From the IMG/VR virus record IMGVR_UViG_3300025141_000592, positions 1-27,464 of that record: a DNA stretch of 27,464 nt; one strand, given 5' to 3'. The notes under the pieces are model-generated. The model saw only the letters and a list, made by a program, of their open reading frames with translations. It made no database searches and was not told where the DNA came from. Positions within the stretch are counted from its first letter, which is position 1; each line of letters starts with the position of its first letter. The DNA is from a virus. The translations under genes and the position numbers were made by a program. Positions 4,524-26,160 of the stretch are shown here, piece by piece.

Positions 4524-6227
4524 ATGGCAAATGAAATAGTAGAATTAGAAGTAAAATCAAACATTGGTGAAGTTACTGATGGTATTGATAAGGCAACAGC
4601 AAGTACTAAGAAACTTGATGACGCTACACAAAAGGGTGCTAAAGGATTTAAAGGAATAGGAAATGCTGTAAAAGGAGTTGGTACGGCTTTAAAAGCAGCA
4701 GGAATAGGTTTAGTTGTTGCATTATTTGTTACACTTAAAGAAGCTTTAGAAAGAAACCAAAAGGTAATGAATACAGTCAATACGATTATGACTACTGTAT
4801 CAACTACATTTAATCAAGTAGCAGATGTTCTTGTTGATGTATATAATTGGGTTACAAAATCTTCAGACAGGTTTGACGGATTAACTAAAGTTATTAGTGG
4901 TTTAATGACAATAGCCTTAACTCCTTTGAAATTATCTTTTTATGCTATTAAGCTAGGAGTTCAATCTGCTATGTTAGCTTGGGAAGATAGTTTTTTTGGT
5001 GGAGGTGATGAAGGAAAAATAGCAGAACTAAGAGTTAGTATAGCTGAAACAGCAAATGATATTAAAGAAGTAGGATTAGCAGCTATTGATGCAGGAAAAG
5101 ATATTGGTAATAATATAGGTGATGCGATTGGTGAGATAGGAGCTATTGGAGAAATAGCAATAGATGGTATTTCTAAAATAAGTATTAAAGCAAACTATGA
5201 ACAAGCAAAAGCAACAACTGCTGCTCAGAATAGTTCAAAACTAGCTGAAGCAGCAATACAAGGACTTATTGAAAAATATGATAGACAAGCAGAATTACAA
5301 AGACAGATAAGAGATGATGAAACTAAAACTTTTGCTGAGAGAATAGCTGCAAATAAAGAGTTAGGAAGGATATTAGAAGAACAGGAAACAGAGATGTTAA
5401 AATTAGCAGATACTAGAGTTGCTTCTGCTGCACTTGAATTAGCTGCTAATAAAGACAATATAGATTTACAAGTAGCTTATCAACAAGCGTTAAATGATAG
5501 AGCAGGAGTTGAAGCACAAGTAGCAGGTTTCAGAAGTGAACAAATGACTAATGAAGTTTCTTTAAATAAAGAATTAGCAGCTGTAAAGAACGAACTAATG
5601 TTAGAGGGGTTACTTGGTATGGAGTTGGAGTTAGAGGAACTGAGAGTAGCTTATGAGGAAAAGAAAAGACTAGCAGAATTATCAGGTGCAGATATGACTG
5701 CAATTACTGAAAAATACGAAAGCGAACAAGCTAAAATAAAGAAGTCATACGAAAAGAAAAAGGAAACTTTTGCTAAAATGTCAGCTGAAGCTCAACTTGA
5801 TATTATGAGCCAAACAGCAGGGAATATGATTAAGATATTAGGTGAAGAAACAGCAGCAGGAAAAGCTATGGCTGTTACACAGGCTACTATTGATACTTAT
5901 AAAGGTGCTACAGCAGCTTATGCTTCTATGGCAGGTATTCCTGTAGTTGGACCTGCATTGGGTGCTATTGCAGCAGGAGCAGCAGTTGCTTCAGGTTTAG
6001 CAAATGTAAAAGCTATTTTAGCAACAGGAGGTGGTGGTGGTTCTGCTCCAAGTGGTGGCTCTGTACCTACAGCAGGTGCTGAAGCTCCTGCCCCTGAAAT
6101 GATGTCAGGAGCATTTGAATTAGGAGGTGGTCAAGCACCTGAACCTGTTAAAGCGTATGTAGTAACAGATGAGATGTCAGATAGTCAAGACCAATTAGCA
6201 AATATTAGAAGAAGGGCAACAATCTAA
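4524..6227 (+). CDS. Tape-measure-like tail protein
   Basis: A 567-residue, mostly helical protein. The N-terminus has a TMP-like KxLDDATxKGAKGFKGIG stretch and a hydrophobic segment at about 55-72 (AAGIGLVVALFVTL). A long Ala/Glu/Lys-rich coiled-coil region covers about 200-430. Near the C-terminus a hydrophobic Ala/Gly block (ATAAYASMAGIPVVGPALGA and following) leads to a Gly-rich linker and ends in LANIRRRATI. Tape-measure proteins set tail length and are ejected with the DNA. The length is short for that family and would suit a short siphovirus tail. It lies after fibre genes and directly before the head module, which is unusual for a tape measure, so another internal tail protein is possible. 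Confidence 0.7.
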   Translation: MANEIVELEVKSNIGEVTDGIDKATASTKKLDDATQKGAKGFKGIGNAVKGVGTALKAAGIGLVVALFVTLKEALERNQKVMNTVNTIMTTVSTTFNQVADVLVDVYNWVTKSSDRFDGLTKVISGLMTIALTPLKLSFYAIKLGVQSAMLAWEDSFFGGGDEGKIAELRVSIAETANDIKEVGLAAIDAGKDIGNNIGDAIGEIGAIGEIAIDGISKISIKANYEQAKATTAAQNSSKLAEAAIQGLIEKYDRQAELQRQIRDDETKTFAERIAANKELGRILEEQETEMLKLADTRVASAALELAANKDNIDLQVAYQQALNDRAGVEAQVAGFRSEQMTNEVSLNKELAAVKNELMLEGLLGMELELEELRVAYEEKKRLAELSGADMTAITEKYESEQAKIKKSYEKKKETFAKMSAEAQLDIMSQTAGNMIKILGEETAAGKAMAVTQATIDTYKGATAAYASMAGIPVVGPALGAIAAGAAVASGLANVKAILATGGGGGSAPSGGSVPTAGAEAPAPEMMSGAFELGGGQAPEPVKAYVVTDEMSDSQDQLANIRRRATI

Positions 6228-6263
6228 AATCAAATAAAGCAATAAATAATCTATTATATATTA
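6226..6263 (+). promoter_or_regulatory. Repeated phage promoter-like element, copy 1
   Basis: CTATTATATATTA at 6251-6263, 32 nt before the ATG of the first head-module gene, lies in the only sizeable gap (55 nt) between tail and head genes. CAAATAAA at 6231-6238 starts exactly 20 nt upstream, as in copies 2 and 3. The longer string AAAATCAAATAAA also recurs at the same distance in copy 2. The promoter role is inferred. Confidence 0.6.
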
Positions 6264-6282
6264 CAACCTTAAAATAAATACT

Positions 6283-6669
6283 ATGAACAAGCCAACACCA
6301 ATAGGAAAGAAAACATTTGCAGAATACGAAAAAGAAGTAAACGATTATAAAGAATTTAACTTAGGTAAAGTTGAAAAAGTTGAGTTAGGTTTAGTAGATG
6401 ATTTAGAGAAAATAATTCAGAATACAAACTCAGAATACAAAACAATGCTAAAAGAAAAAGATAAATTCTTTAAAGCAAATGATGATTTAAAAAAGGTAGC
6501 AAACAAAGTATTTGAAGGTGAACAAAAAATACTTACACTTAGAGATAAATTAGTTAAGGCAGTAAAAGATTTAGGTGTTGAAAATCCTGATATTGTAACA
6601 CGAGCTGAAAAACTTGCAGCGATATATTTTAAAGAAGCAGATATGATGTTAAAAATAGCAAAATATTAA
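6283..6669 (+). CDS. Helical coiled-coil protein of the head module (paralogue of the 7622 gene)
   Basis: A 128-residue, Lys/Glu-rich, almost wholly helical protein of unknown function. Its segment KVEKVELGLVDDLEKIIQ is clearly related to KTEKVELSVVNDLKVILK in the 7622-8035 product. Its AVKDLGVENPD corresponds to AKELGVDPKD there and IKELGVSEKEA in the C-terminal part of the protease at 6671. It is the first gene after a CTATTATATA element and ends one base before the protease gene. Position suggests a capsid-assembly factor such as a scaffold, chaperone or protease partner; this is inference from neighbours only. Confidence 0.55.
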   Translation: MNKPTPIGKKTFAEYEKEVNDYKEFNLGKVEKVELGLVDDLEKIIQNTNSEYKTMLKEKDKFFKANDDLKKVANKVFEGEQKILTLRDKLVKAVKDLGVENPDIVTRAEKLAAIYFKEADMMLKIAKY

Positions 6670-6670
6670 T

Positions 6671-7609: not shown

Positions 7610-7621
7610 TAAAACTATAAT

Positions 7622-8035: not shown

Positions 8036-8072
8036 AAATCAAACAAACTAAATATTAATCTATTATATACTA
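8035..8072 (+). promoter_or_regulatory. Repeated phage promoter-like element, copy 2
   Basis: CTATTATATACTA occupies 8060-8072, and its last A is the first base of the scaffold-gene ATG. CAAACAAA at 8040-8047 starts exactly 20 nt upstream, and AAAATCAAA at 8035 matches copy 1. If TATTAT (8061-8066) acts as a -10 box, transcription would begin at about the A of the ATG and give a leaderless mRNA for scaffold and capsid. This is inferred from geometry. Confidence 0.6.
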
Positions 8073-8746: not shown

Positions 8747-8759
8747 AAAATAAAAAAAA

Positions 8760-9659: not shown

Positions 9660-9674
9660 TAAAATAAATAAAAC

Positions 9675-9698: not shown

Positions 9699-9715
9699 TT
9701 AACCAAAAAAAAACA

Positions 9716-10303: not shown

Positions 10304-10329
10304 TTTTCTTTTCATATTTTCTTGATTTG

Positions 10330-10358
10330 GGTGGGCTTTTGCTCACCTTTTTCTTTTT
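10330..10358 (+). terminator. Rho-independent terminator ending the head operon
   Basis: GGTGGGC (10330-10336), loop TTTT, GCTCACC (10341-10347) with one G-U pair, then TTTTTCTTTTT (10348-10358). It lies 27 nt after the 9716-10303 stop and before the third promoter-like element at 10394. It is the clearest intrinsic terminator in the window. Confidence 0.85.
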
Positions 10359-10373: not shown

Positions 10374-10406
10374 CAAATAAATTCAACTATTTTCTATTAT
10401 ATAGTA
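10374..10406 (+). promoter_or_regulatory. Repeated phage promoter-like element, copy 3
   Basis: CTATTATATAGTA at 10394-10406, with CAAATAAA at 10374-10381 starting exactly 20 nt upstream, as in copies 1 and 2. It lies just downstream of the intrinsic terminator at 10330-10358 and 26 nt before the next ATG (10420). That is where a new transcription start is needed, and it is the best single argument that the element is a promoter. Confidence 0.65.
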
Positions 10407-16230: not shown

Positions 16231-16261
16231 TTTGGTTAGTAAGTTTTTTTTTGTACTTTTG
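16231..16261 (+). promoter_or_regulatory. Host-type (Bacteroidota sigma) promoter for the early operon
   Basis: TTTG at 16231-16234 and TACTTTTG at 16254-16261 match the -33 TTTG and -7 TAnnTTTG boxes of the Bacteroidota primary sigma factor, with 19 nt between TTG and TA. Transcription would start about 16266-16270, leaving a leader of about 45 nt before ATG 16315. It faces the replication genes and differs clearly from the CTATTATATA elements before the late genes. Confidence 0.7.
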
Positions 16262-16314: not shown

Positions 16315-16467
16315 ATGGCAAAAAAGAAAATCGTAAACAGAAACACAGGAGAACTAATATCAACAAATGAACTAATATCAACACTTGTTGAATTACAGAA
16401 TAAGTTAAAAGAACTAATTAACTATAAAGAAGCACTTGAAAAAGAACTAGAAGCTAGAAAAAAATAA
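16315..16467 (+). CDS. Small early protein (50 aa), N-terminus shared with the next gene
   Basis: ATG 16315, preceded by an A-rich leader, opens 50 codons: MAKKKIVNRNTGELISTNEL, then a short coiled coil (LVELQNKLKELINYKEALEK) and a basic end. It is the first gene after the host-type promoter. Its KIVNRNTG stretch recurs at the start of the next gene, and the DNA is 24/25 identical (16327-16351 against 16518-16542). A stable hairpin follows the stop. First-expressed small phage proteins are often host-takeover factors, but nothing here shows a function. Confidence 0.65.
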   Translation: MAKKKIVNRNTGELISTNELISTLVELQNKLKELINYKEALEKELEARKK

Positions 16468-16475
16468 ATTAATCA

Positions 16476-16493
16476 GGGGGTGTAAAAACCCCC
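16476..16493 (+). terminator. G5/C5 hairpin between the first two early genes
   Basis: GGGGGU (16476-16481) pairs with ACCCCC (16488-16493), closing the hexaloop GUAAAA. No U-run follows, so it is more likely an attenuator or 3' stabiliser that separates the first small gene from the rest. The same loop tops the hairpin after the capsid gene. Confidence 0.5.
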
Positions 16494-16508
16494 ACAAACA
16501 ATCAAGAA

Positions 16509-16748
16509 ATGAAATACAAAATCGTAAACAGGAACACAGGAGCAACTTACTTCTTAAACTCACAAGAATATGCAACATTTGTGCAAAGAAACAGCTTTTT
16601 CAAAGATGGTGTTTGTCAATATGACGAATACAATTTAACTAAAGAGAAAGCTAGAAGAAGAAATAAGATGTTAGACCTAGTTGCTCACTTGTGTATAATA
16701 GGAGCTTCAATCTTAGGTACTTTACTTTACATTCAAAACTACTGCTAA
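16509..16748 (+). CDS. Small early protein with C-terminal membrane segment
   Basis: A 79-residue protein starting MKYKIVNRNTGATYFLNSQE, followed by a basic stretch (KEKARRRNKMLD) and a hydrophobic C-terminal helix (LVAHLCIIGASILGTLLYI). It would be anchored in the inner membrane with its N-terminus in the cytoplasm by the positive-inside rule. It shares KIVNRNTG with the preceding 50-residue protein. Function is unknown. An early inner-membrane protein could act in superinfection exclusion, but that is only a suggestion. Confidence 0.6.
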   Translation: MKYKIVNRNTGATYFLNSQEYATFVQRNSFFKDGVCQYDEYNLTKEKARRRNKMLDLVAHLCIIGASILGTLLYIQNYC

Positions 16749-16749
16749 G

Positions 16750-17127
16750 ATGACAATACAAGACGCAAACTACTTAGAATTTTCTACTTATGTAGATTAC
16801 AACAAGCCGTTCTATTCAAATCTTTTTGGAAGAGATTTAGACAATACTAAAGTAAGAGCTGATGAATGGTATTTAAAGCCTATGTACGAGCAGTTAAGCT
16901 TTACTTCATACGACAAGGCTTCAGGTCATTTTAATAACGATATAAGCTATAACAGCAGATCAGTAATAGTTGTAGGAACTGAATTACAAATCTATAACAA
17001 GTTTTGTGAGATGATTGAGAAACACGGGTGGCAACTTCAGGATAGTTGGGATAGAGAATTAAAGCCTGAATATTTAAAACACTATAAATCAAATAATAAT
17101 TCACCAATAATAATTAATTTAATATGA
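16750..17127 (+). CDS. Hypothetical early protein (125 aa)
   Basis: A 125-residue protein rich in Tyr, Asn and Asp (YLEFSTYVDYNKPFYSNLFG, DEWYLKPMYEQLSF, WQLQDSWDRELKPEYLKHY). It appears soluble and mixed alpha/beta. No motif or family is recognised. It starts one base after the previous stop and overlaps the next gene by 4 nt, so it belongs to the early operon. Confidence 0.55.
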   Translation: MTIQDANYLEFSTYVDYNKPFYSNLFGRDLDNTKVRADEWYLKPMYEQLSFTSYDKASGHFNNDISYNSRSVIVVGTELQIYNKFCEMIEKHGWQLQDSWDRELKPEYLKHYKSNNNSPIIINLI

Positions 17128-17345
17128 CACCAATTGAACTACAAGAAGCCAAAGAGCTTCACAAAAGACTGCACGAAATAAATACTTTTCAATGTGTAGA
17201 TAACGAACTATACCTAAGAGGTAAAGATGAAATGGGAGAGGATTTTACAATATGTTTTGACGCTTTTAACTTCTTAGAATGGATAAACAAAGATCAGATA
17301 GAATATATAAAACAAAAAGTAATTGAGTATGTTGAAGAAAAATAA
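17124..17345 (+). CDS. Hypothetical small acidic early protein (73 aa)
   Basis: A 73-residue acidic protein, helical at both ends (IELQEAKELHKRLHEIN and NKDQIEYIKQKVIEYVEEK) with a short beta hairpin between (NELYLRGKDEMGEDFTICF). Its start overlaps the upstream stop by 4 nt (ATGA). Function is unknown. A 68-nt gap follows with a TACTTTTA string but no convincing -33 box. Confidence 0.55.
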   Translation: MTPIELQEAKELHKRLHEINTFQCVDNELYLRGKDEMGEDFTICFDAFNFLEWINKDQIEYIKQKVIEYVEEK

Positions 17346-17413
17346 TTTATTACTTTTACACCAAATTATTAACAGGCAAAAATATTCCTAGCCAATTAAC
17401 ATAGGTAGAAAAT

Positions 17414-17806
17414 ATGAAAACAGAAGCACTAAAAGAAAAGTACATTAAGTACAATCTAACAAAAGATGATGTCTTTAAACATCAGCACTACATTATCTTG
17501 ACAAGAAGCGGTATTGATAAGATACAGGCTTTGGAAAACATTCACATAGATTATGATGTTATTAAATGTGAAAAAGATTTTTGTGTAGTAAAAGCCAATG
17601 CAAGAAAAGAAGGAAAGGCAATTCAAACATTTGGATCAGCTTTAAAAGGAGCAGGTTTTAAGGACGGAAACACTAACTCGTGGTACACTATGGAAATGGC
17701 AGAGAAACGAGCAATGTCAAGAGCTGTACTGAAACTAACAGGTTTCTATGAGCTAGGAGTATTCGGTGAAGATGAAGCAGAAGATTTTAAAAAGAGTAAT
17801 AACTAA
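17414..17806 (+). CDS. Conserved replication-module protein, possibly ssDNA-annealing related
   Basis: A 130-residue protein with an alpha/beta N-terminal half (HYIILTRSGIDKIQALENI, FCVVKANARKEGKAIQTFGS) and the segment SWYTMEMAEKRAMSRAVLKL, then GFYELGVFGEDEAEDFK. The AEKRAxSRAVLxLxG segment resembles helices found in phage single-strand annealing and related proteins, and the gene sits directly before an SSB-like gene. The size is much smaller than Erf or RecT, so I call it only a conserved protein with a likely DNA-recombination or replication link. That link is inference. Confidence 0.5.
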   Translation: MKTEALKEKYIKYNLTKDDVFKHQHYIILTRSGIDKIQALENIHIDYDVIKCEKDFCVVKANARKEGKAIQTFGSALKGAGFKDGNTNSWYTMEMAEKRAMSRAVLKLTGFYELGVFGEDEAEDFKKSNN

Positions 17807-17820
17807 ATAAATAAATAAAA

Positions 17821-18141
17821 ATGGAAGTAACAGGAACAGTATTAAGAAAACTTGAATTAGAAACAGGAGTATCTAAAGCAGGTAAAGAATGGAAGAAGCA
17901 ATCAATAGTAATTGATACAGGTAACGACTTTAATAATGAAATATGTGTTAGTGCCTTTGGTGATAAATTAGAGCAAATGAACAAGCTAGAAGTAGGTATG
18001 GATGTATCAGTTCTTTGTAATGTTTATTCAAGAGAATACAATGGTAGATATTTTCATAATATAGATGGCTACTTTTTTACTAATCAGAGTAATAAATCTT
18101 CAGACAAAATACAGAATGGAGAAGAAGATATGCCTTTTTAA
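17821..18141 (+). CDS. SSB-like OB-fold protein (DUF3127 type)
   Basis: A 106-residue protein matching the DUF3127 pattern: MEVTGTVLRKLELETGVSKA, GKEWKKQSIVIDTG, then EICVSAFGDKLEQ and SREYNGRYFHNIDGYFF. It has a flexible linker and the C-terminal tip EEDMPF. OB folds bind single-stranded DNA, and an acidic tip ending in PF is the partner-binding tail of bacterial SSB. It would coat ssDNA at the fork and recruit replication proteins. Neighbouring DnaA-like, initiator and nuclease genes fit. Confidence 0.75.
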   Translation: MEVTGTVLRKLELETGVSKAGKEWKKQSIVIDTGNDFNNEICVSAFGDKLEQMNKLEVGMDVSVLCNVYSREYNGRYFHNIDGYFFTNQSNKSSDKIQNGEEDMPF

Positions 18142-18142
18142 G

Positions 18143-18652
18143 ATGAATACAGAAGATAACTTTAAAAACCTTTGCGACCTTACTACAAATTTAGTAGGGT
18201 TGCCTAAAGGCTCTCTAGCTTTAAAAACTAGAAAGACAGAATACCAAGTACCTAGAATGGTAGCAGCTATGATTTCAAGACTTGAAGATAAAACTCATAG
18301 GGATATAATTGCTAAAGTATTGGATAGAGATAGAACAAGCGTGAACCATTACGAAAGGTGTCACTCATCTAACTACTCATCATTCCCTTTGTATCGTGAT
18401 ACATTCAACAAAGTATTTAACGCTTATACGGAACTCAAAGACGCTAAATTAACTTTTATTGACTTGTTTAATTTACAGGAACATCTAAGAAAAAACGGCA
18501 TACACGATAGCTCAAAACATCAGACTACTATCCGTATTAGTACAGGTAAATTTAAGATAGCTGTAAATGTTTCTTACAAAGACTTCTATAATCAATTAGA
18601 ATTATGTAAGTTAGCCCTTCAAAATTATCAACACGAAATAGAAGTAATATGA
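18143..18652 (+). CDS. DnaA domain IV-like DNA-binding protein
   Basis: The start chosen is ATG 18143, just after the SSB-like stop; an earlier in-frame ATG (18065) lies inside that gene. The 169-residue protein carries residues about 10-75 resembling the DnaA C-terminal domain: TRKTEYQVPRMVAAMISRLE, HRDIIAKVLDRDRTSVNHYE. The RDRTSVNH segment corresponds to the RDHSTV-type recognition helix that reads DnaA boxes. The AAA+ domain is absent; the C-terminal half is mixed alpha/beta and unrecognised. It may bind origin sites or compete with host DnaA. It overlaps the initiator gene by 4 nt. Confidence 0.6.
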   Translation: MNTEDNFKNLCDLTTNLVGLPKGSLALKTRKTEYQVPRMVAAMISRLEDKTHRDIIAKVLDRDRTSVNHYERCHSSNYSSFPLYRDTFNKVFNAYTELKDAKLTFIDLFNLQEHLRKNGIHDSSKHQTTIRISTGKFKIAVNVSYKDFYNQLELCKLALQNYQHEIEVI

Positions 18653-19293
18653 AAGAAAAGCCAAGTTACTATGCCATTATCCCTGCTCAGGTGAGATATG
18701 CAAAAGAATTAACTCCTAACGCTAAATTACTTTATGCAGAGATAACGGCTTTGGCTCAAAAAGATGGTTCTTGTTGGGCTAGTAATAAATACTTTTCAGA
18801 GCTTTATAATGTATCAACAGTAACAATAAGCAGATGGATAAGCAGCTTAGTTGATAACTCCTTTATTATTAGGAAGATAGTTTATAAAAAAGGTACTAAA
18901 GAAATTGATAAGAGGTATTTACAATTAAGTCAAGAGGGTATTAACAATAATGATAATACCCCTATTAACAAAATTGTTAAAGATAACAATACAAGTATTA
19001 ATAATACAAGTATTAATAATATATCTATAAGGGAATTAAAATTTATTAATGATGTTTCTTTATTTGATTATGATAAAAATATTTTAGATAGTTTTACAGA
19101 TTATTGGACTGAGCCTAATAAATCTAAAACAAAAATGAAATTTGAACTTTGCCAAACTTGGGAAACAAAACGCAGACTAAAGACTTGGGCTAATAATCAA
19201 AAGAAATGGGATAAACCTAAGTCTAATAAAAAAACAATGAGTAAGTTAGACGCACAAATTAATGAATGGCAAAAAGCAAAAGAATTATTATGA
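18649..19293 (+). CDS. Winged-helix replication initiator-like protein
   Basis: A 214-residue protein. Residues about 1-85 form a helix-turn-helix/winged-helix domain (YYAIIPAQVRYAKELTPNAK, LLYAEITALAQKDGSCWASN, YFSELYNVSTVTISRWISSL) of the type in phage replisome organisers and plasmid initiators. A low-complexity Asn/Ser/Ile linker at about 96-125 is encoded by DNA packed with palindromes and direct repeats, a probable origin. The C-terminal part (SFTDYWTEPNKSKTKMKFEL, TWETKRRLKTWANN) is a pattern I associate with phage replication proteins such as those of DnaD type. It would bind the origin and recruit the host helicase. The ATG overlaps the upstream stop (ATGA). Confidence 0.7.
   Translation: MKEKPSYYAIIPAQVRYAKELTPNAKLLYAEITALAQKDGSCWASNKYFSELYNVSTVTISRWISSLVDNSFIIRKIVYKKGTKEIDKRYLQLSQEGINNNDNTPINKIVKDNNTSINNTSINNISIRELKFINDVSLFDYDKNILDSFTDYWTEPNKSKTKMKFELCQTWETKRRLKTWANNQKKWDKPKSNKKTMSKLDAQINEWQKAKELL
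18936..19022 (+). other. Putative replication origin inside the initiator gene
   Basis: Within 87 nt there are GGGTATTA / TAATACCC (18936-18943 and 18954-18961), TTAACAA-AA-TTGTTAA (18965-18980) and two 15-nt direct repeats, 18985-18999 and 19000-19014, each containing the palindrome AATAC-AA-GTATT. Very AT-rich DNA follows. Iterons plus an AT-rich segment in the linker-coding part of an initiator gene is the arrangement of lambda O. Origin function is inferred. Confidence 0.5.
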
Positions 19294-19469
19294 CAGAAAA
19301 AGAATTTTATAATTTATTGTTAGATGAATTAAATGAAATGCAGGATTATATATTATGTCCTATGGATATATTAGATACTGTTGAGGATTATATAGAACAT
19401 CATATAGATAAAGAAGTTAATAAAAGATTAGATGAAATGGACGATACAATAAAAAAAATTGAATTATGA
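19290..19469 (+). CDS. Small acidic helical protein (59 aa)
   Basis: The start is ATG 19290, overlapping the initiator stop (ATGA), rather than the ATG at 19266 inside that gene. The 59-residue product is acidic and helical (FYNLLLDELNEMQDYI, VEDYIEHHIDKEVNKRLDEM). No family is recognised. Tight coupling to the initiator suggests a replication accessory, perhaps a loader or inhibitor, but nothing in the sequence proves this. Confidence 0.5.
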   Translation: MTEKEFYNLLLDELNEMQDYILCPMDILDTVEDYIEHHIDKEVNKRLDEMDDTIKKIEL

Positions 19470-19834
19470 AACCATTAAAACAAGAAAACCTAAAAGATCT
19501 GACTGAAAAAGTCCTAGACTTAGTTGCTAAGACTTCAGTTGAAATAGGACACAGATCAGACGCACAGACTTTAGCTTCACTATCTAAAATATTTGCTGAG
19601 GACTTAATACAAGAAAAGCGTTTCGGTAATATGACTTTCAACCAAGTTCAGGACGCATTTAGACAGGGCGTAAGATTTGGAAAAGACGAACCCTTTTTAA
19701 ATATCAGAACCTTTTACAAGTGGGTGTATGCTCAGAAGAAGTTAGTAGACAATGCCTACTATGAAGTTCACACTTTAGGAAAGCCAAAGGATAAGACCTT
19801 ATGGTATCAAGAACCTGTAAAGCTATTAAGATGA
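19466..19834 (+). CDS. Conserved replication-region protein (122 aa)
   Basis: A 122-residue, mostly helical protein (NLKDLTEKVLDLVAKTSVEI, LASLSKIFAEDLIQEKRFGN, VQDAFRQGVRFGKDEPFLNI, RTFYKWVYAQKKLVDNAY). I recall similar proteins next to initiators in Bacteroidota phages and prophages, where they may act with the helicase, but no family name is certain. The start overlaps the preceding stop, and the stop overlaps a 19-residue membrane ORF (ATGA). Confidence 0.55.
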   Translation: MKPLKQENLKDLTEKVLDLVAKTSVEIGHRSDAQTLASLSKIFAEDLIQEKRFGNMTFNQVQDAFRQGVRFGKDEPFLNIRTFYKWVYAQKKLVDNAYYEVHTLGKPKDKTLWYQEPVKLLR

Positions 19835-19890
19835 TAGGTTGGGTAATAATAACAGCCATTGTAATGTGGTTAATAAGAAAATTGAAATGA
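19831..19890 (+). CDS. Tiny membrane peptide (19 aa)
   Basis: ATG 19831 overlaps the preceding stop (ATGA) and opens MIGWVIITAIVMWLIRKLK, a single hydrophobic helix with a basic end. Its TGA is overlapped by the start of the next tiny ORF. The same coupling on both sides and the lack of any other content in this 131-nt gap support coding. Function is unknown. Confidence 0.4.
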   Translation: MIGWVIITAIVMWLIRKLK

Positions 19891-19976
19891 AGATATTAAC
19901 AATCGTATGGGGAATAATAATTATACTTTGTCTTTTAGAAGCATATTTTTGTTCTAAGTTTGAAGATGAAATTTGA
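19887..19976 (+). CDS. Tiny membrane peptide (29 aa)
   Basis: ATG 19887 overlaps the previous TGA (ATGA). The 29-residue product has a hydrophobic helix (ILTIVWGIIIILCLLEAYF) and an acidic tail (KFEDEI). It overlaps the nuclease gene start by 11 nt. With its 19-residue neighbour it forms a coupled pair of membrane peptides. Function is unknown. Confidence 0.45.
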   Translation: MKILTIVWGIIIILCLLEAYFCSKFEDEI

Positions 19977-20391
19977 AAGAAAAGCACATAGAGAAAGACA
20001 GAACAAAGCTTTAACTCAGTTTTGCAATCACTTTGGTTTAACTTATGGTTCACATCAGGAATATGCTCACATAGACGCAGTTCTTTATAACAAAGGAAAG
20101 ATTACAGGTTTTGCTGAAGTAAAAGGAGTTCATAAGAATATAGAGGACAAACAAGATGTTATTGTAGCAATGAGAAAGTTGGTAAGAGCTCAACAGCTTC
20201 AAGTCAGTAGCGGGAAACCTGTAGCAATTATATGGGCTTTTAATAATGCAATAGTATATGAAAGAATAAATAACTTGAAAGGAATCTTTTATTATGGTGG
20301 CAGGAAAATTAGGGAAGGAAGTACCTTTGACCAAGAAATGCTCATTAAAGTATTAATTAAAAACCTAATAAGAATTGAAAAAGACAGTTAG
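19966..20391 (+). CDS. PD-(D/E)XK-type nuclease
   Basis: The first ATG in frame is 19966 (MKFERKAHRERQNKALTQFC); a TTG six bases upstream is less likely. In this 141-residue protein the core reads YAHIDAVLYNKGKITGFAEV then KG, giving the Asp...Glu-x-Lys signature of PD-(D/E)XK nucleases with a preceding helix. Strands and helices after it (PVAIIWAFNNAIVYERI) fit the fold. Likely roles are Holliday-junction resolution or processing of DNA ends in recombination. NinG, another junction-type nuclease, follows directly. The specific substrate is inferred. Confidence 0.65.
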   Translation: MKFERKAHRERQNKALTQFCNHFGLTYGSHQEYAHIDAVLYNKGKITGFAEVKGVHKNIEDKQDVIVAMRKLVRAQQLQVSSGKPVAIIWAFNNAIVYERINNLKGIFYYGGRKIREGSTFDQEMLIKVLIKNLIRIEKDS

Positions 20392-20785
20392 TAAATTAAA
20401 AAAGGAACTTGACAAGTGGTTTAGTCTTTACATTAGACTTAGGGAAGCAAACGAATATGGAATGGTACAATGCTTCACTTGTGGAGTAGTCAGGCACTAC
20501 AAAGATGGTATGCAGAACGGACACTTCCAAAGTAGGAAACATCTATCAACTCGTTTTGATGAGGAAAATTGTCAAAATCAGTGCGTGAAATGCAATGTCT
20601 ATTCTTGGGGGGAACAGTATAAATTCAGTCTAGCATTAGATGCAAAGTATGGGGAAGGTAAAGCTCAGGAATTACAATACTTAGCTAGAACAACTTTGAA
20701 GATAAGTCGTGTTGAATATGAGGAAAAGATAAGTTATTACAAATCACTTGTTGAAAAGTTAAAAAAAGAAAAAGGAATTGAGTAA
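20375..20785 (+). CDS. ninG: NinG-like recombination nuclease
   Basis: A 136-residue NinG/Rap family protein. It has a helical start (SKLKKELDKWFSLYIRLREA), zinc ligands Cys33-x2-Cys36 and Cys70-x2-Cys73, the NGHFQSRKH motif with His50, and RFDEENCQNQC. NinG proteins act on recombination intermediates with phage recombinases. The frame has a stop at 20369-20371 and no ATG before residue 30, so the start must be TTG 20375, overlapping the nuclease gene by 17 nt. An ATG start at residue 30 would remove conserved sequence. A second gene, TerL, shows the same situation. Confidence 0.8.
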   Translation: MKKTVSKLKKELDKWFSLYIRLREANEYGMVQCFTCGVVRHYKDGMQNGHFQSRKHLSTRFDEENCQNQCVKCNVYSWGEQYKFSLALDAKYGEGKAQELQYLARTTLKISRVEYEEKISYYKSLVEKLKKEKGIE

Positions 20786-20807
20786 ACTTTTTTATTAAGT
20801 TTGGCGT

Positions 20808-21164
20808 ATGATAGAACCAATTTATGCAAGTACCGAACATAAGTTTATAATCCAAAGCTATATCAATATGACACTAGAGTTCGTAAAAGATATTGCAACA
20901 CCAACCAAGTACAATAACTATTTAGAAGTATTTGAAATAATAATTGAATATCACAACGGATATGGTAAAGGCGTAAGAGAAAATAACTTTTACGATTGGA
21001 TTATGATAATCCCTATAAACTTATCAGTTATGACTAATGGGTTCTTTGCAGGAATTGAAACAAAGAGAAACGCAACAATAATAAGGTCGTATAAAACAAT
21101 ACTAAACGAGATACTTCAGGAAACAGTAGATAAGATAGAAACTTTAGAAATGACAAATGAATGA
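20808..21164 (+). CDS. Hypothetical protein (118 aa)
   Basis: A 118-residue, mostly helical protein (FIIQSYINMTLEFVKDIATP, YLEVFEIIIEYHNGYGKGV, YKTILNEILQETVDKIETLE) without recognised motifs. A TAAGTTTG string at 20796-20803 just before the ATG resembles a host -7 box, but the spacing to the nearest TTG is too short for confidence. It overlaps the sigma-like gene by 8 nt and may be coregulated with it. Confidence 0.5.
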   Translation: MIEPIYASTEHKFIIQSYINMTLEFVKDIATPTKYNNYLEVFEIIIEYHNGYGKGVRENNFYDWIMIIPINLSVMTNGFFAGIETKRNATIIRSYKTILNEILQETVDKIETLEMTNE

Positions 21165-21711
21165 AATATATAAAGTAATTGCTGACTGTAGGAGTGAGTT
21201 TGAAAAGATGTGTTATGGTTTAACTACTGACAAAAACACAGTAGATGATGCAGTACAGGAACTTATGATTTATATGCTTCAAATGAATCCTGAAGTTTTA
21301 TCTAAAATATATACAAAAGATGGTAAAGAAGGTTTAATAAAGTATGGAGCAGTTGCATTAAGAAGAAGTCTAACAAGTGTAAGAAGTGCTTACTATTATA
21401 AATACGACAAATACTATACACATATTGACGAACTAACAAGCACTTTAACTTACGAATACAAAAATACATCTGCTAAAGACCTTTACAACCTGCCTAATGA
21501 AGTTTTAGATGTTTGTAAGTATGAGCAACTAGAAAGTATAGATAACACCTTAGACGGCTTGTATTGGTACGACAGAGCTATATTCAAGTTATATTACTAT
21601 AAGGGAAAGACTTTATCAGGACTTGCTGAAGAAACAGGAATAAGTAGAAACAGTCTTTTCACTACAATAGATAAAGTAAGGGAAATACTTAAAAAGGAAT
21701 TGAATGAATAA
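21157..21711 (+). CDS. Sigma-70-family-like (ECF-type) transcription factor
   Basis: A 184-residue protein with the plan of a small sigma factor. The N-terminal part contains DAVQELMIYMLQMNP, like the region 2 helix DxxQExFxxl, plus LIKYGAVALRRSLTSVRSAY. After a variable middle, the C-terminus WYDRAIFKLYYYKGKTLSGL, AEETGISRNSLFTTIDKVRE looks like region 4, with a helix-turn-helix for promoter recognition. It would direct host RNA polymerase to phage promoters; the repeated CTATTATATANTA element is the obvious candidate target. A small HTH DNA-binding protein without sigma activity is the alternative. It is packed between overlapping genes on both sides. Confidence 0.6.
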   Translation: MNEIYKVIADCRSEFEKMCYGLTTDKNTVDDAVQELMIYMLQMNPEVLSKIYTKDGKEGLIKYGAVALRRSLTSVRSAYYYKYDKYYTHIDELTSTLTYEYKNTSAKDLYNLPNEVLDVCKYEQLESIDNTLDGLYWYDRAIFKLYYYKGKTLSGLAEETGISRNSLFTTIDKVREILKKELNE

Positions 21712-22108
21712 GTTTTTTGTACCTAATGAAATATATGAAGATAGAATAGCTATCTGTAAGAGTTGTGTTTATTATTTTAAACCTACAGGAACTTGTAAAG
21801 ACTGTGGCTGTTTTATGAAGATAAAGGCAAGACTTGCAACAATGGGTTGTAGTCAGAAGAAATGGGCAAAAACAACTGAAGTAGAAACTCCTGAAAGTTT
21901 ACCACAGGAAATAGTAGATGAGATATTAGATATGTGGAAAGATTTAAAAACAGGGAAAGCAAAAAACAAAGCAGCTAAAAAGAGAATGATTGAAACTTAT
22001 AACACCATTTTTAATACCAACTACAATGTAGGTACTAACTGTGGCTCTTGTATTTCAACTTGCTTTAAAGGAATAAAAAAACTATATGAAGAATATGCTA
22101 AGGGATAA
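21704..22108 (+). CDS. Cysteine-rich zinc-binding protein
   Basis: A 134-residue protein with two Cys groups. The N-terminal one, RIAICKSCVYY...GTCKDCGCFMKIKARL...MGCSQKKW, is a zinc-ribbon-like pattern known in small phage and T4-type proteins. The C-terminal one is CGSCISTCFKGIKK. The protein probably binds zinc and may contact nucleic acid or RNA polymerase. Its start overlaps the sigma-like gene (8 nt), so the pair may work together in transcription control; this is inferred from adjacency only. Confidence 0.6.
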   Translation: MNKFFVPNEIYEDRIAICKSCVYYFKPTGTCKDCGCFMKIKARLATMGCSQKKWAKTTEVETPESLPQEIVDEILDMWKDLKTGKAKNKAAKKRMIETYNTIFNTNYNVGTNCGSCISTCFKGIKKLYEEYAKG

Positions 22109-22186
22109 ACTTAACTTAAATAACAATGCGGTTATTTTCTTATTTTTTACTGAACCCTTAGCGTATTTAAAACTAAAACAATAGAT

Positions 22187-22684
22187 ATGGCTTCAACAAA
22201 TTTAAGTATGTTAAATAAAACATCAAACAATTCTTTGTCTGATGAGTGCTACACTCCTAATGAAGCAATATTACCTTTGTTAAATGAGTTGCCTAAAGAT
22301 AAAGTTTATTATGATTGCACGAGTGGCATTAGTTCTAATATAGTGGATTGCTTTACTTCTAATGATTATAAATGTGTATCAAGCAAAGATAGTGATTTTT
22401 TAACAGATGAACTTCCTGATGGAATTGATGTTATAATTACCAATCCTCCTTATTCTAAAAAAGATAAGTTTATTGAAAGGTGCTATGAGTTGAAAAAACC
22501 TTTTGCTTTATTACTTCCTGTAAGTTCTTTGCAGGGAATAAAAAGAGGAGAAATGTTTGCTAAAAATGGAATTGAAATACTAGCATTAAAAAAGAGAATA
22601 GATTTCACAGGAAAGGGTAGTCCTCACTTTGGAGTTGCTTGGTTTTGTCATAATATATTAAAGCAAAATTTAATTTTTAAATAA
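22187..22684 (+). CDS. Adenine-specific DNA methyltransferase-like protein
   Basis: A 165-residue protein. DVIITNPPYSKKDKFIERCY holds the NPPY catalytic motif of N6-adenine methyltransferases. KVYYDCTSGISSNIVD occupies the SAM-binding motif I position but lacks the usual F-x-G-x-G. DECYTPNEAILPLL at the N-terminus and GKGSPHFGVAWFCHNIL at the end match a family of short phage adenine methyltransferases. It probably methylates phage DNA against host restriction. The unusual motif I leaves SAM binding to be shown. A 78-nt spacer without clear signals precedes it. Confidence 0.65.
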   Translation: MASTNLSMLNKTSNNSLSDECYTPNEAILPLLNELPKDKVYYDCTSGISSNIVDCFTSNDYKCVSSKDSDFLTDELPDGIDVIITNPPYSKKDKFIERCYELKKPFALLLPVSSLQGIKRGEMFAKNGIEILALKKRIDFTGKGSPHFGVAWFCHNILKQNLIFK

Positions 22685-22690
22685 AATAAT

Positions 22691-22861
22691 ATGGAAAGAA
22701 CTTACAAAACAATTAAATGGATATTAAAGAAACATATTGATAAAGGAGTTAAATCTTTATGGACTTGGGAGAACGATAATTTTACTTGTATATTTGAAAA
22801 CTATGATGGTGATAGTAGGATATATACACCTCATCAACTTTTAAAACTATTAAGCAAATGA
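22691..22861 (+). CDS. Small hypothetical protein (56 aa)
   Basis: ATG 22691 opens 56 codons with natural composition (RTYKTIKWILKKHIDKGVKS, LWTWENDNFTCIFENYDGDS, RIYTPHQLLKLLSK). It starts six bases after the methyltransferase stop and its stop overlaps the next ATG (ATGA). No family is recognised. Confidence 0.55.
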   Translation: MERTYKTIKWILKKHIDKGVKSLWTWENDNFTCIFENYDGDSRIYTPHQLLKLLSK

Positions 22862-22992
22862 TAACACTAGCAATAATAGTAGCTGTCTTAATAATCATAT
22901 TTTTTGTAAATACAATTATAGAAAATAAGATAGCAATAAAAAACAACAAAGATTTAATTGATAACATAAATAAACTAAATGAAAGATATTAA
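22858..22992 (+). CDS. Small single-TM protein (44 aa)
   Basis: ATG 22858 overlaps the preceding stop (ATGA). The 44-residue product starts with a hydrophobic helix (MITLAIIVAVLIIIFFVNTI) and continues as a polar helix rich in Asn and Lys (KNNKDLIDNINKLNERY). It overlaps the DUF3310 gene by 14 nt. Function is unknown. Confidence 0.55.
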   Translation: MITLAIIVAVLIIIFFVNTIIENKIAIKNNKDLIDNINKLNERY

Positions 22993-23203
22993 CTATAAAG
23001 AAACACCAACACCTAATTACTATATTGGTGAAGTATTTGGATATGAAGCTAAAGACATAATTACTGACTTTGGACTTTCGTATAATTTAGGAACGGCTAC
23101 AAGCTACATACTCAGAAGTGCAAGAAAGCACGATACACAAATTGACTGTTTGCAAAAAGCTATTAATCACTTACAGTTTGAATTAGACAAACTAAAGAAG
23201 TAA
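22979..23203 (+). CDS. DUF3310-like protein
   Basis: A 74-residue protein with the DUF3310 pattern: YYIGEVFGYEAKDIITDFGL, LGTATSYILRSARKHDTQID, CLQKAINHLQFELDKL. The DUF3310 core (yilR...K....DL.KA..yl) is common in phages, sometimes fused to nucleotide-metabolism enzymes, but its activity is unknown. It precedes a 53-nt gap that holds the fourth promoter-like element and so ends the early operon in this model. Confidence 0.65.
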   Translation: MKDINYKETPTPNYYIGEVFGYEAKDIITDFGLSYNLGTATSYILRSARKHDTQIDCLQKAINHLQFELDKLKK

Positions 23204-23230
23204 GACCGAATAAAATAAATAAACAAAAAT

Positions 23231-23243
23231 TCTATTATATACT
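23231..23243 (+). promoter_or_regulatory. Repeated phage promoter-like element, copy 4
   Basis: CTATTATATACTA at 23231-23243, 26 nt before the ATG of the ParB-like gene and preceded by A-rich DNA without a clean CAAAYAAA box. It would start transcription of the ParB-like, Mom-like, tRNA and terminase genes, placing them with late genes. Confidence 0.55.
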
Positions 23244-23256
23244 AAGACACTACATT

Positions 23257-23850
23257 ATGAAACAACAAGTTAAGATAAGTAAAGTAAAGGGAAACCCTGA
23301 CAATCCTAGAATAATTAAGAACGATAAATTTAAAAAGCTAGTAAAGTCAATACAAGAGTTCCCTGAGATGTTAAAGTTAAGACCAATTGTAGTTGATGAA
23401 GAAATGGTTGTCTTAGGTGGTAATATGAGATTAAAGGCAAGTAAAGAAGCAGGACTTAAAGAAGTATGGGTAGAAGTAGCAGAAGGATTGTCAGAAGAAC
23501 AAAAGAAAGAGTTTATAGTTAAAGACAATGTAGGGTTTGGAGAATGGGAATGGGATATGTTAGCTAATGAATGGGATAGTGTAGAACTTGCAGAATGGGG
23601 TTTAGATGTATGGCAGAATGAAGATGATATTGAAACAAGTGATGAGTTTAGTTTACCTGATGGGGATAAAAGCAACTTAGAGCAAATAACATACACGCTA
23701 AGTAGTGAGCAAAGCAATATAATAAAAGAAGCAGTACAAGAAATAAAACATACTGAGGAATACAAGTATGTAGAAACTTTCGGAAATGAAAATAGTAATG
23801 GTAACGCTTTATATTTATTAATACAACAATGGGTAGGGCAAAAGAAATAA
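23257..23850 (+). CDS. ParB/sulfiredoxin-fold nuclease-like protein
   Basis: A 197-residue protein. Residues 1-80 carry the ParB N-terminal pattern: NPDNPRIIKNDKFKKLVKSI, LRPIVVDEEMVVLGGNMRLK, ASKEAGLKEVWVEV. The GGNMR motif is the CTP/phosphate-binding GxxR region. The middle region EFIVKDNVGFGEWEWDMLAN, ELAEWGLDVW resembles sequence that follows this domain in phage ParB-methylase proteins, but the methylase itself is absent. The C-terminus is acidic and helical. In phages such proteins are linked to DNA modification; the overlapping Mom-like gene supports that here. Segregation is less likely, as no ParA is seen. Confidence 0.7.
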   Translation: MKQQVKISKVKGNPDNPRIIKNDKFKKLVKSIQEFPEMLKLRPIVVDEEMVVLGGNMRLKASKEAGLKEVWVEVAEGLSEEQKKEFIVKDNVGFGEWEWDMLANEWDSVELAEWGLDVWQNEDDIETSDEFSLPDGDKSNLEQITYTLSSEQSNIIKEAVQEIKHTEEYKYVETFGNENSNGNALYLLIQQWVGQKK

Positions 23851-24506
23851 TAGTAAAAGTTATAACAAGTAAAGTTGCTAATGCTTTTGTAAAGAAACAA
23901 CACTACTCAGGTAAGGTTGTTCCTAATAGTACTTTACATTTTGGTTGCTTTTTAGATAAGCGTTTACACGGAGTAATGAGTTTCGGACCTAGTATAAATA
24001 AAAAGGGAACAATTAACTTAGTAGAAGGAACAGGTTGGAATGAGTTTATTGAATTAAACCGAATGGCTTTTAATGACTTTCTTCCTAAGTATAGTGAAAG
24101 TAGATGTATTAGTGTTGCTATGAAATTAATAAAGAAAAACGCACCTCACATAAAATGGGTAATTAGTTTTGCAGATGGAACACAATGTGGAGATGGAACA
24201 ATATACAGAGCAAGTGGTTTTAAGTTGGTTGGTATTGCTGAAAATACAGCTTTAAGAATAAACCCTAAAACCCTAAAACCAATGCACATAATACAAGCAC
24301 ACCATTTAAAAATGAGTAGTGAGTTTAGAAATTGGAAAGCTTATGAAGGTTATCAGTTAAAATATATATATTTTATTGATAAGAAAATGGAAAGTAATTT
24401 AACAAAGCCAATTATTCCTTTTAGCGAAATAGATAAAATAGGTGCAGGAATGTATAAAGGCGAAAAGATAACATTAAAAGAAAGAAAAGAAAATAAGCGT
24501 GATTAG
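23829..24506 (+). CDS. Mom-like DNA-modification acyltransferase
   Basis: A 225-residue protein resembling the phage Mu Mom family, a GNAT-fold enzyme that modifies adenines to N6-carbamoylmethyl-adenine. Seen: NAFVKKQHYSGKVVPNSTLH, FGCFLDKRLHGVMSFG, FIELNRMAFNDFLPKYSESR (the E-L-x-R motif), ISVAMKLIKKNAPHIKWVIS, then FADGTQCGDGTIYRASGF. Acetyl-CoA-type binding is expected from the fold. It would protect phage DNA from restriction. It overlaps the ParB-like gene by 22 nt, indicating coupled expression. The last codons overlap the 5' arm of the tRNA-like gene. The assignment is by motif only. Confidence 0.65.
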   Translation: MGRAKEIIVKVITSKVANAFVKKQHYSGKVVPNSTLHFGCFLDKRLHGVMSFGPSINKKGTINLVEGTGWNEFIELNRMAFNDFLPKYSESRCISVAMKLIKKNAPHIKWVISFADGTQCGDGTIYRASGFKLVGIAENTALRINPKTLKPMHIIQAHHLKMSSEFRNWKAYEGYQLKYIYFIDKKMESNLTKPIIPFSEIDKIGAGMYKGEKITLKERKENKRD

Positions 24507-24568
24507 CATATACAGTAATGCGTTGGCTATTCCAAGTCAAAGAAGGGGTGCAATTCCACCATCACGCT
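24497..24568 (+). tRNA. tRNA-Gly(UCC)-like gene with 8-nt anticodon loop
   Basis: The 72-nt element folds as a cloverleaf. The acceptor stem is GCGTGAT (24497-24503) with ATCACGC (24561-24567), all seven pairs perfect. The D stem is GCAT/ATGC (24506-24509, 24518-24521). The anticodon stem is TTGGC/GTCAA (24523-24527, 24536-24540) with one G-U pair, and its loop TATTCCAA has eight nucleotides. UCC is read if U33 is T24530. GGTGCAATTCC resembles the T-arm box, but the T stem is only four pairs with a 6-nt loop. T73 is the glycine discriminator of bacteria. G18 is missing and CCA is not encoded. It fills the gap between the Mom-like and TerS genes. It may be a divergent or decaying tRNA. Confidence 0.55.
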
Positions 24569-24586
24569 CTAATATAACATTGAAAA

Positions 24587-24940
24587 ATGGAACAGAATAG
24601 AACAAAGATTAACAAAGAGAGATTACTCAAAGCATTAGAAAGTTCTTTAGGAGTAATAACAACAGCTTTAAAAGCAACTGACCTAAGTAGAACAAACTTT
24701 TATAAGTGGTTAAAAGAAGATGAAGAATTTGCAGCTAAGGTTGAAGAAATAGAAAACATACAACAGGACTTTATTAAGTCAAAGTATTATGAATGCGTAA
24801 AAGACAAAGTACCTTCAGTTGTAATACACGCTGCAAAGACTAGATTAGGTTGGAATGAAACAAACAGAGTAGATATAACTTCAGGAGATAAAGCTATCAA
24901 TATGCCTGTTATAACATTTGTTGAAACTGATACTGAATAA
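24587..24940 (+). CDS. terS: Terminase small subunit
   Basis: A 117-residue protein with an N-terminal helix-turn-helix (RLLKALESSLGVITTALKAT, DLSRTNFYKWLKEDEEFAAK), a long helix (VEEIENIQQDFIKSKYYECV) and VPSVVIHAAKTRLGWNE, the usual plan of small terminase subunits. The N-terminal domain binds the packaging site and the central helices build the ring. It lies directly upstream of the large subunit and overlaps it by 23 nt. Confidence 0.75.
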   Translation: MEQNRTKINKERLLKALESSLGVITTALKATDLSRTNFYKWLKEDEEFAAKVEEIENIQQDFIKSKYYECVKDKVPSVVIHAAKTRLGWNETNRVDITSGDKAINMPVITFVETDTE

Positions 24941-26129
24941 GAAATACAATCCTTTATTTTCATCTGATGCTCGTTACTTTATTATAACAGGCGGTAGGGG
25001 TTCAGGAAAGTCTTTTGCTGTAACAGTCTTTCTTACTTTACTTACAATGACTAAAGGAATAAGAATACTCTTTACCCGGTACACTATGACTTCAGCTCAC
25101 TTGTCAATCATTCCTGAGTTCTTAGAAAAGATAGGGCTGCTAGGATTTGATAATGTCTTTAGTATTAATAAATCAGAAGTATTAAATACAAGCAACAATT
25201 CAGACATATTGTTTAGAGGAATTAGAACCTCAGCAGGAAATCAAACAGCAAGTCTAAAGTCATTACAGGGAATAAGCACTTGGGTATTAGATGAAGCTGA
25301 GGAATTAGTTGATGAGAATATCTTTGATACTATTGATTTAAGTATAAGGGAAAAGAATATACATAATAGAGTAGTCTTAATACTTAATCCTGTAACTAAA
25401 GAGCATTGGATATACAAAAGGTTTTTTGAGGACAAAGGTGTAGAGGGTGGTTTTAATGGCTTTAAAGACAATGTATGCTATATCCATACTAACTACCTAG
25501 ATAACAAAGAAAACCTCTCACAGAGCTTCCTAGAGCGTATTAAGAGCATAAAGCATAGAAACTTTAAAAAGTATCAGCACAAAATCTTAGGTGGTTGGTT
25601 AGATAAAGCAGAAGGAGTTGTCTTTGAGAATTGGTCAATAGGTGAATTTAATCCTGATGGCCTACAGACTTCCTGTGGAATGGACTTTGGTTTTAGTGTT
25701 GATCCTGATAGTTTGACAGAAGTAGCTATTGATAAAAAGAAGCGTAAGATATATTTAAAAGAGCATATCTATAAGAATGGTATTAAGTCAAATGAATTGG
25801 CTAAAATCATATTAGACAAAGTTGGTGATAAACTTATTATAGCAGATTCAGCAGAACCAAGACTAATAGCAGACCTTAGACATTTAGGAGTAAACATTAA
25901 ACCTGTAAAGAAAGGAACTATTGAAAGTGGGATAACTCGTATGCAAGATTATGAACTTATTATAACTCCTGAATCAACTAACATAGCCAAAGAGCTAAAC
26001 AATTACATCTATGCTGACAAAGGTTCTAAACTTTATGTAGACAACTACAATCACGCAATTGATGGTATTCGTTACAATGTTATTTATCATTTAGATAACC
26101 CTAATGCAGGTCGTTACTTTGTGCAGTAA
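24918..26129 (+). CDS. terL: Terminase large subunit (PBSX XtmB type)
   Basis: A 403-residue packaging motor with ATPase and nuclease domains. Seen: Walker A GGRGSGKS (residues 25-32), Walker B WVLDEAEEL with Asp125-Glu126, coupling motif ILNPVTKEHW, nuclease Asp256 in CGMDFGFSVDPDS, IADSAEPRLIADLRHLGV, and Asp382 in NHAIDGIRYN. It binds the portal, cuts concatemers and pumps DNA. In-frame DNA has a stop at 24912-24914 and no ATG before the Walker A motif, so translation must begin at TTG 24918 or TTG 24921, coupled to the small subunit. This is the best family anchor in the window. Confidence 0.9.
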   Translation: MLKLILNKKYNPLFSSDARYFIITGGRGSGKSFAVTVFLTLLTMTKGIRILFTRYTMTSAHLSIIPEFLEKIGLLGFDNVFSINKSEVLNTSNNSDILFRGIRTSAGNQTASLKSLQGISTWVLDEAEELVDENIFDTIDLSIREKNIHNRVVLILNPVTKEHWIYKRFFEDKGVEGGFNGFKDNVCYIHTNYLDNKENLSQSFLERIKSIKHRNFKKYQHKILGGWLDKAEGVVFENWSIGEFNPDGLQTSCGMDFGFSVDPDSLTEVAIDKKKRKIYLKEHIYKNGIKSNELAKIILDKVGDKLIIADSAEPRLIADLRHLGVNIKPVKKGTIESGITRMQDYELIITPESTNIAKELNNYIYADKGSKLYVDNYNHAIDGIRYNVIYHLDNPNAGRYFVQ

Positions 26130-26147
26130 ACTAAAAACAATAAAATT

Positions 26148-26160
26148 CTATTATATAGTA
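26148..26160 (+). promoter_or_regulatory. Repeated phage promoter-like element, copy 5
   Basis: CTATTATATAGTA at 26148-26160; its last A is the first base of the chaperone ATG, as in copy 2. With TATTAT (26149-26154) as the -10 box, the mRNA would begin at about that A and be leaderless. The upstream flank is A-rich (AAACTAAA at 26128) without a perfect CAAAYAAA box. Confidence 0.6.

Follow-up and report, generated by a model that had tools for sequence, protein, structure and literature searches.

Which signal is carried by five identical ten-base sequences that lie between the genes of the virus record IMGVR_UViG_3300025141_000592, and which protein reads it? The record, 27,464 bases long and analyzed as a whole (the window), contains terminase, portal and tape-measure genes. 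By terminase, its nearest named relatives are the Nonlabens phages P12024S and P12024L (63 % identity), a kinship that makes flavobacterial hosts likely. From the letters of the window alone, an original prediction had put forward that the sequence, CTATTATATANTA, represents a dedicated class of phage late promoters, and this is still the best reading. The sequence evidence strongly supports a class of late promoters of the phage, for which there is a candidate sigma factor, and the five elements are very probably the late promoters of an extracytoplasmic function (ECF)-like sigma factor encoded by the phage itself in open reading frame (ORF) 21157-21711. The generality of the upstream part of the element, the likely sigma factor, the position of the start site, the leaderless arrangement and the existence of diverged versions all go beyond what had been proposed.

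Exact copies of CTATTATATANTA are present at positions 6251, 8060, 10394, 23232 and 26148, all on the plus strand and none on the minus strand; four of these positions had been given correctly, and the remaining copy had been placed one base early, at 23231. The first ATG is located at +32, +12, +26, +25 and +12, respectively, from the start of the core, in agreement with the 12-32 nucleotides (nt) claimed earlier. All five copies are intergenic and on the coding strand, as had also been stated, in the gene list of this analysis, by which intergenic DNA makes up 4.5 % of the window. In 1000 dinucleotide shuffles, both strands together contained a mean of 0.032 copies and a maximum of two, and none reached five or more. 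The upstream part had been described as CAAAYAAA at -20 in three of the copies. It is indeed found there, but the description was too narrow: AA[AC][TC]AAA (AAMYAAA) is located at exactly -19 from the core in all five, and the core and upstream part together were not obtained once in 1000 dinucleotide shuffles. A loose 13-mer, allowing two mismatches, was rejected as evidence (23 copies vs 14.5 expected, with 3 of 100 shuffles reaching 23). The signal resides in the exact and bipartite form, the loose 13-mer being mildly enriched. As had been noted for the element, TAnnTTTG is absent; this holds for the stretch between -40 and +30 at each of the five sites. The features of the window and the places shared with its relatives are collected in Table 1.

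Table 1 Predicted promoters and associated features of the window, and places at which the element occurs in the phage group
Feature	Position	Strand	Description
Late promoter 1	6231..6263	+	Upstream CAAATAAA 6231-6238, core CTATTATATATTA 6251-6263, predicted start A6263; between tape measure gene and ORF 6283
Late promoter 2	8040..8072	+	Upstream CAAACAAA 8040-8047, core CTATTATATACTA 8060-8072, predicted start A8072, the A of the ORF 8072 ATG; ORF 8072 is ahead of a capsid-like gene
Late promoter 3	10374..10406	+	Upstream CAAATAAA 10374-10381, core CTATTATATAGTA 10394-10406, predicted start A10406; ahead of ORF 10420
Late promoter 4	23212..23244	+	Upstream AAAATAAA 23212-23219, core CTATTATATACTA 23232-23244, predicted start A23244; ahead of ParB-like ORF 23257, terminase genes downstream
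Late promoter 5	26128..26160	+	Upstream AAACTAAA 26128-26135, touching the terminase gene end, core CTATTATATAGTA 26148-26160, predicted start A26160, the A of the ORF 26160 ATG
ECF-like sigma factor, 184 residues	21157..21711	+	Profile similarity, predicted fold; proposed reader of the five promoters
Host-type promoter	16231..16261	+	TTTG, 19 nt, TACTTTTG; ahead of early operon
Terminator-like hairpin	10329..10348	+	Before late promoter 3
Shared place			Before ParB-like or small-terminase gene
Shared place			Between large terminase and next gene
Shared place			After tape-measure gene
Shared place			Before gene ahead of capsid-like gene
Shared place			After tail-type gene, before ORF 10420

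The element is found throughout a group of related phages. A terminase search of the viral collection provided 80 loci, and at least 598 relatives among 600 candidate stretches. The 80 loci and the two Nonlabens records together contain 91 exact copies on the terminase strand and two on the opposite one; the exact element is absent from both Nonlabens records, and no copy of the reversed pattern was found in the entire set. An enlarged set of 244 loci, in 152 contig groups, has 277 non-redundant bipartite sites on the gene strand versus two on the opposite strand, with at least one such site in 128 of the contig groups. Open frames of at least 100 codons contain none of 96 sites, and one of 188 in the larger set. 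This one, an exact site in locus L104, was dismissed as an intragenic case: the frame extends upstream by chance, and the start codon common to the relatives is at +12. Scanning the viral collection with the bipartite pattern yielded at least 120 stretches, and the 80 of these that were examined, for which the specificity holds, all belong to this phage group. Two or more window-like genes are present in 79 of them; 99 of their sites have the same strand as the closest of these genes, none has the opposite strand and one is without such a gene. The last stretch, L334, encodes MNTHGGKR, with which a gene that follows the element in other members begins. The comparison with related phages, gene context and shuffles, by which the original prediction was to be judged, has thus come out in its favor.

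The 48 sites in the window and ten contigs of 27.8-31.0 kb fall at a few shared places (Table 1), and those comparable to the places of all five window promoters are occupied in relatives. One extra site is located before a small gene in contig G017, while the exact elements at 351 in G001 and 23749 in G014 were excluded from the list because their upstream part does not fit the pattern. The element is kept even where the gene behind it differs. At the place before the large terminase (e.g., in L048, L034 and L058), varying short genes, with starts such as MNTHGGKR, MDKRINNGG and MEHGGKR, follow the same element. Two loci that were found via the sigma factor alone, L270 and L271, have three and two sites, respectively, and none on the opposite strand; binned as Pseudooceanicola and Euryarchaeota metagenome-assembled genomes, they probably are misbinned phages of this group. 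The contigs of the group begin at differing places, as expected of a circularly permuted genome, and about 1-2 kb located between the ORF 26925 homologue and the first tail gene in relatives (G001, G011 and G012) is missing from the window.

A profile of 142 distinct sites, which form 39 clusters when grouped at 75 % identity, has YMAAMTAAAT from -21 to -12, where an A occupies both -19 and -18 in every cluster, followed by a weaker AATTT at -5 to -1 and the core, which is invariant because it was the search pattern. When the upstream part was not required, it was present at exactly -19 in 181 of 188 exact gene-strand sites and in none of four on the opposite strand. When it was required and positions 11-13 were left free, T or C was found at position 12 in 276 of 283 sites and A or G at position 13 in 279, with a pyrimidine-purine (YR) pair at 12-13 in 276. 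TATTAT at core positions 2-7 together with this YR is the layout of a -10 element and start, and fits promoters at which the transcript would begin at position 13, often without a leader. An ATG could be assigned for 276 sites; it is at +12 in 95, at +14 in 79, at +25 in 18 and at +40 to +42 in 54. None is nearer than +12, which the core sequence itself partly forces, and the predicted leader is 0 or 2 nt in 174 sites. The distance between core and ATG spans 12 to 53 nt, with one case of 72, and the internal spacing of the element is fixed; it is because the one varies while the other stays constant that a promoter is suggested. The gene starting with MKQQVKI has the core 25 nt ahead of its start codon in 16 sites and 12 nt ahead in 30, so that 13 nt of leader are gained or lost while the element itself is preserved. 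In 20 of 96 sites (a row count), the preceding gene ends 3 nt ahead of the core, and the upstream part is therefore written into the last codons of that gene. A further 18 minus-strand contexts include contig halves stored in reverse, and their count was not used. In PMC3160421, TA-like signals about 12 bp ahead of start codons are described as marking leaderless genes, which the arrangement of element and ATG seen here resembles.

As to the protein that may read the element, the product of ORF 21157 aligns by residues 10-182 with positions 9-165 of 165 of TIGR02937, the sigma-70 family profile for ECF factors (E 1.2e-9). Its predicted model has a predicted local distance difference test score (pLDDT) of 77.7 and a predicted template modeling (TM) score (pTM) of 0.44. 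The best Foldseek match of the whole model is an ECF sigma factor (E 2.6e-4), and residues 119-184, a helix-turn-helix in the model, superimpose on sigmaE region 4 with -35 DNA (Z 10.6, root mean square deviation (rmsd) 2.0, 66 residues aligned). A homologue is present in all 11 long contigs, and one scan of the viral collection gave stretches with 322 relatives. The sigma of the relative L091 reaches 42.8 bits with TIGR02937, for which the curated cut-off is 42.9. Comparison of the sigma profile with PDB sequences was set aside, as no more than three weak matches were obtained (E 0.25-0.49), FliA being among them. The end of the sigma gene is overlapped by a gene (21704-22108) for a cysteine-rich protein of 134 residues (Pfam DUF6171, E 3e-9). 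Its homologue is present in all 11 long contigs as well, about 0.5-1.1 kb past the sigma start in ten and at the other contig end in G005; the protein is a possible partner of the sigma factor.

The early operon (16315-23203) contains the sigma gene about 70 % along its length and is preceded by a host-type promoter. The host-type pattern is found at the same place in four of 11 contigs and elsewhere on both strands; since it also hits elsewhere, what argues for this promoter is its location before the early operon. In nine contigs with an unbroken early span, which makes up 21 % of the sequence, none of 39 element sites lies within it. Beside the replication initiator gene, 18065-18652 encodes a protein of 195 residues in which a helix-turn-helix weakly resembles the C-terminal one of DnaA (E 0.0019, below the cut-off). 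Copy 3 had been reported to follow the strongest terminator, and it does lie 46 nt past the end of the top-listed hairpin of the window. In seven of nine contigs, the site before ORF 10420 has a hairpin followed by a run of T 28-43 nt upstream (-13.7 to -15.2 kcal/mol), which means that transcription must restart there; G009 and G018 have no terminator at this place. At the other places, one weak hairpin (-6.9 kcal/mol) was seen among 39 sites.

These observations suggest the following course of events. At the beginning of infection, the TAnnTTTG promoter at 16231 would be used by the RNA polymerase of the host, with the primary sigma factor of the host, to transcribe the early operon. The phage sigma factor made from this operon would join the host core RNA polymerase, its region 4 contacting YMAAMTAAAT, the upstream element located 21 to 12 bases ahead of the core, and its region 2 contacting the core TATTATATA. 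The first base of the RNA would be the purine of core position 13, behind the pyrimidine at position 12. At about a third of the sites this purine would be the A of the ATG, giving an mRNA without a leader, and most of the remaining sites would give leaders of 2, about 13 or about 28-30 nt.

Diverged versions of both partners occur. P12024S has a sigma-like protein, with Sigma70_r2 over its cut-off, encoded shortly before the terminase, at the same place as that of the window. In its structural parts, CGTTANTA with an ATG at +12 precedes six gene starts, and five of these elements have AA[AC][AC]AA at -19 to -21. This element was spotted by reading the sequences before gene starts; de novo counts of 11-mers in P12024S were of no use, as they were swamped by A-tracts. 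CGTTANTA is also present in relatives with 67-92 % sigma identity, and a single site, its ATG at +15, was found in each of three relatives with 48-50 % identity. When aligned by ATG, CGTTAATATA of P12024S and CTATTATATA of the window group share the same register. Within the group of the window, 12 loci have ACATTATATA or ATATTATATA and lack CTATTATATA, and five sigma rows from such loci are located in one clade of eight rows (support 99/86). Certain columns set the ACATTATATA sigma rows apart, such as T169S in the predicted recognition helix, and five such rows prove nothing. With somewhat more confidence than doubt, it may be proposed that widespread small marine flavobacterial phages express their late genes by means of their own ECF-like sigma factor and a bipartite promoter that often directly adjoins the start codon, with mRNAs that are mostly leaderless or nearly so, and that joint divergence of sigma factor and promoter has produced at least three forms (CTATTATATA, ACATTATATA and CGTTAATATA), the change extending across the examined late sites of a given phage. 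If this is true, the phage group is a natural series of how a sigma factor changes its specificity.

A number of observations weigh against the assignment of the five elements to the product of ORF 21157. Its TIGR02937 score of 38.0 bits is below the curated cut-off, for which reason the protein is labeled ECF-like and is not filed as a member of that family, and its match to Pfam sigma region 4 (E 9e-5) is also below the cut-off (22.5 vs 25.7). The whole-model matches have TM-scores of about 0.3 and a large rmsd, the scores being low because the two domains are placed freely. Region 2 alone (model pLDDT 90) gave no Foldseek match at E 0.001 or better; in a second look, seven sigma-type or PhyR chains came out on top (best Z 8.7, rmsd 3.9-4.1, 83 residues aligned; others at most 5.0), and chance alone can give helical models Z values of 7-9. 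No site is present in the stretch examined for 11 of 107 window-type sigma rows. The window sigma had no tblastn match in the phage records, its tie with the P12024S sigma is one of place and profile, and by profile the two types are weakly related (probability 48 %, E 1.9e-4, first 50 residues). Taken alone, CGTTANTA is not special in P12024S, with 13 copies on the plus and six on the minus strand, as against five and one when the upstream part at -19 to -21 is included. The other members of the clade of eight sigma rows are one with CTATTATATA (L178) and two that have no site, and the label has to change twice along the tree. The co-divergence of sigma and motif fits a pairing and is no proof that one reads the other, because both are inherited together. 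With a start at position 13, the upstream element would be at about -32 to -25, closer than the usual -35, and the hairpin scan of the relatives had no shuffle control.

The best of the alternatives, which we nevertheless consider unlikely, is that the promoters are read by host RNA polymerase and a primary or alternative sigma factor of the host, perhaps aided by a phage activator, and that the ORF 21157 protein is not involved. The host core is probably used in any case, as no phage RNA polymerase was found, and the early operon encodes other candidate DNA-binding proteins, such as that of ORF 18065. The lack of TAnnTTTG in the element speaks against this explanation, as does the fact that the element differs among phage sub-groups, which would be hard for a fixed host factor to follow, although the hosts may differ too. 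The motifs known from Flavobacterium psychrophilum also count against it: three of six sigma motifs are variants of TAnnTTTG, and the others are those of sigma-54, TAnnTTGY and a CGT box (PMC9723704).

Translation and RNA-processing signals, which the original prediction had named as the alternatives, fit poorly. A leader sequence that enhances translation, in a phylum without Shine-Dalgarno signals, would suit the 95 sites at which the core abuts the ATG, and the A-rich flanks. It is very improbable given the varying distance to the ATG at a fixed internal spacing, the presence of the element at a few genes per genome, the preceding genes that end 3 nt from the core and the terminator ahead of it at one place in seven of nine contigs. 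A site at which polycistronic late mRNA is cleaved or trimmed would agree with the location between genes of one strand and is scarcely credible, as that same terminator just upstream would leave little to process and the fixed bipartite spacing with YR at 12-13 suits initiation. In T7-type promoters a single tight consensus extends as far as the start site, as the element of the window group does up to its predicted start, and yet a single-subunit phage RNA polymerase is just as hard to credit: PF00940 was found in none of 22 records (T7, the positive control, was found; the records may be incomplete), and the largest unassigned open frame in the 11 long contigs is 450 codons, versus 883 for T7 polymerase, in a search to which the window contributed a genome lacking 1-2 kb.

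The reading of the elements as late promoters of a phage sigma factor has several consequences. Control of late genes by phage sigma factors is already known from other phages, and the class described here is apparently new for this phage group and a variant of that known mechanism. No described class of late promoters for phages of Bacteroidetes was found in the open-licence PubMed Central literature, searched mostly at the level of listed matches; a search for the letters of CTATTATATA gave no phage paper by title among the matches listed, and the main text on North Sea flavophages (PMC8776804) mentions neither sigma nor promoter. For this group, the promoter, the likely sigma factor and the temporal programme become legible from sequence. 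The element could be used to predict late operons of marine phages that are uncultivated, sigma factor and element are a candidate orthogonal pair for flavobacteria, and the group would allow both leaderless translation and the co-evolution of sigma factors with their promoters to be studied.

Several known systems can be compared with that of the window. The host class of promoters is likely the flavobacterial TAnnTTTG (PMC9723704); the early operon has such a promoter, while the motif, located at -7, is absent from all five late sites. In F. psychrophilum, 5.5 % of mRNAs are leaderless (same paper), as against predicted leaders of 0 or 2 nt in 174 of 276 sites here, and AR9 is the comparison phage for leaderless phage mRNAs (PMC5312081). 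Leaderless mRNAs seem to be rare in this phylum. The late promoters of T4 have an AT-rich, TATAAATA-like element before late genes for gp55, a protein of the sigma family; they have no -35-type element and need the sliding clamp and gp33. The AT-rich element is alike, and that of the window differs by having an upstream part.

Of the systems described so far, those of phages 7-11 and phiEco32 come closest. Phage 7-11 is a podophage of Salmonella with a genome much larger than that of the window phage. Its sigma factor (SaPh711_gp47) is encoded in the non-structural part of the genome and joins the host core RNA polymerase; bipartite promoters, GTAAtg-16-aCTA, precede its late genes, and its early genes are on host promoters (PMC8948821). 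The promoter sequence is wholly different from the element of the window, the function of sigma and promoter was measured in 7-11 and is predicted here, and the word leaderless is absent from the text of that paper. The phage phiEco32 likewise has a sigma factor (phi32_gp36) and a small conserved set of promoters before middle and late genes (PMC8948821, PMC4331800), and between its sister phages the sigma factor and the promoter both vary, as in the group of the window. Unlike the bipartite element, its promoter is a single element, tAATGTAtA, without a -35 part, and its sigma factor has no region-4 homology; a host-sigma inhibitor, gp79, is known in phiEco32. As in phages of the 7-11 and phiEco32 kind, the sigma gene of the window is outside the late genes, and the repeated element precedes late genes and is absent from the early operon. 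By analogy, the system of the window may be taken to work like those of 7-11 and phiEco32.

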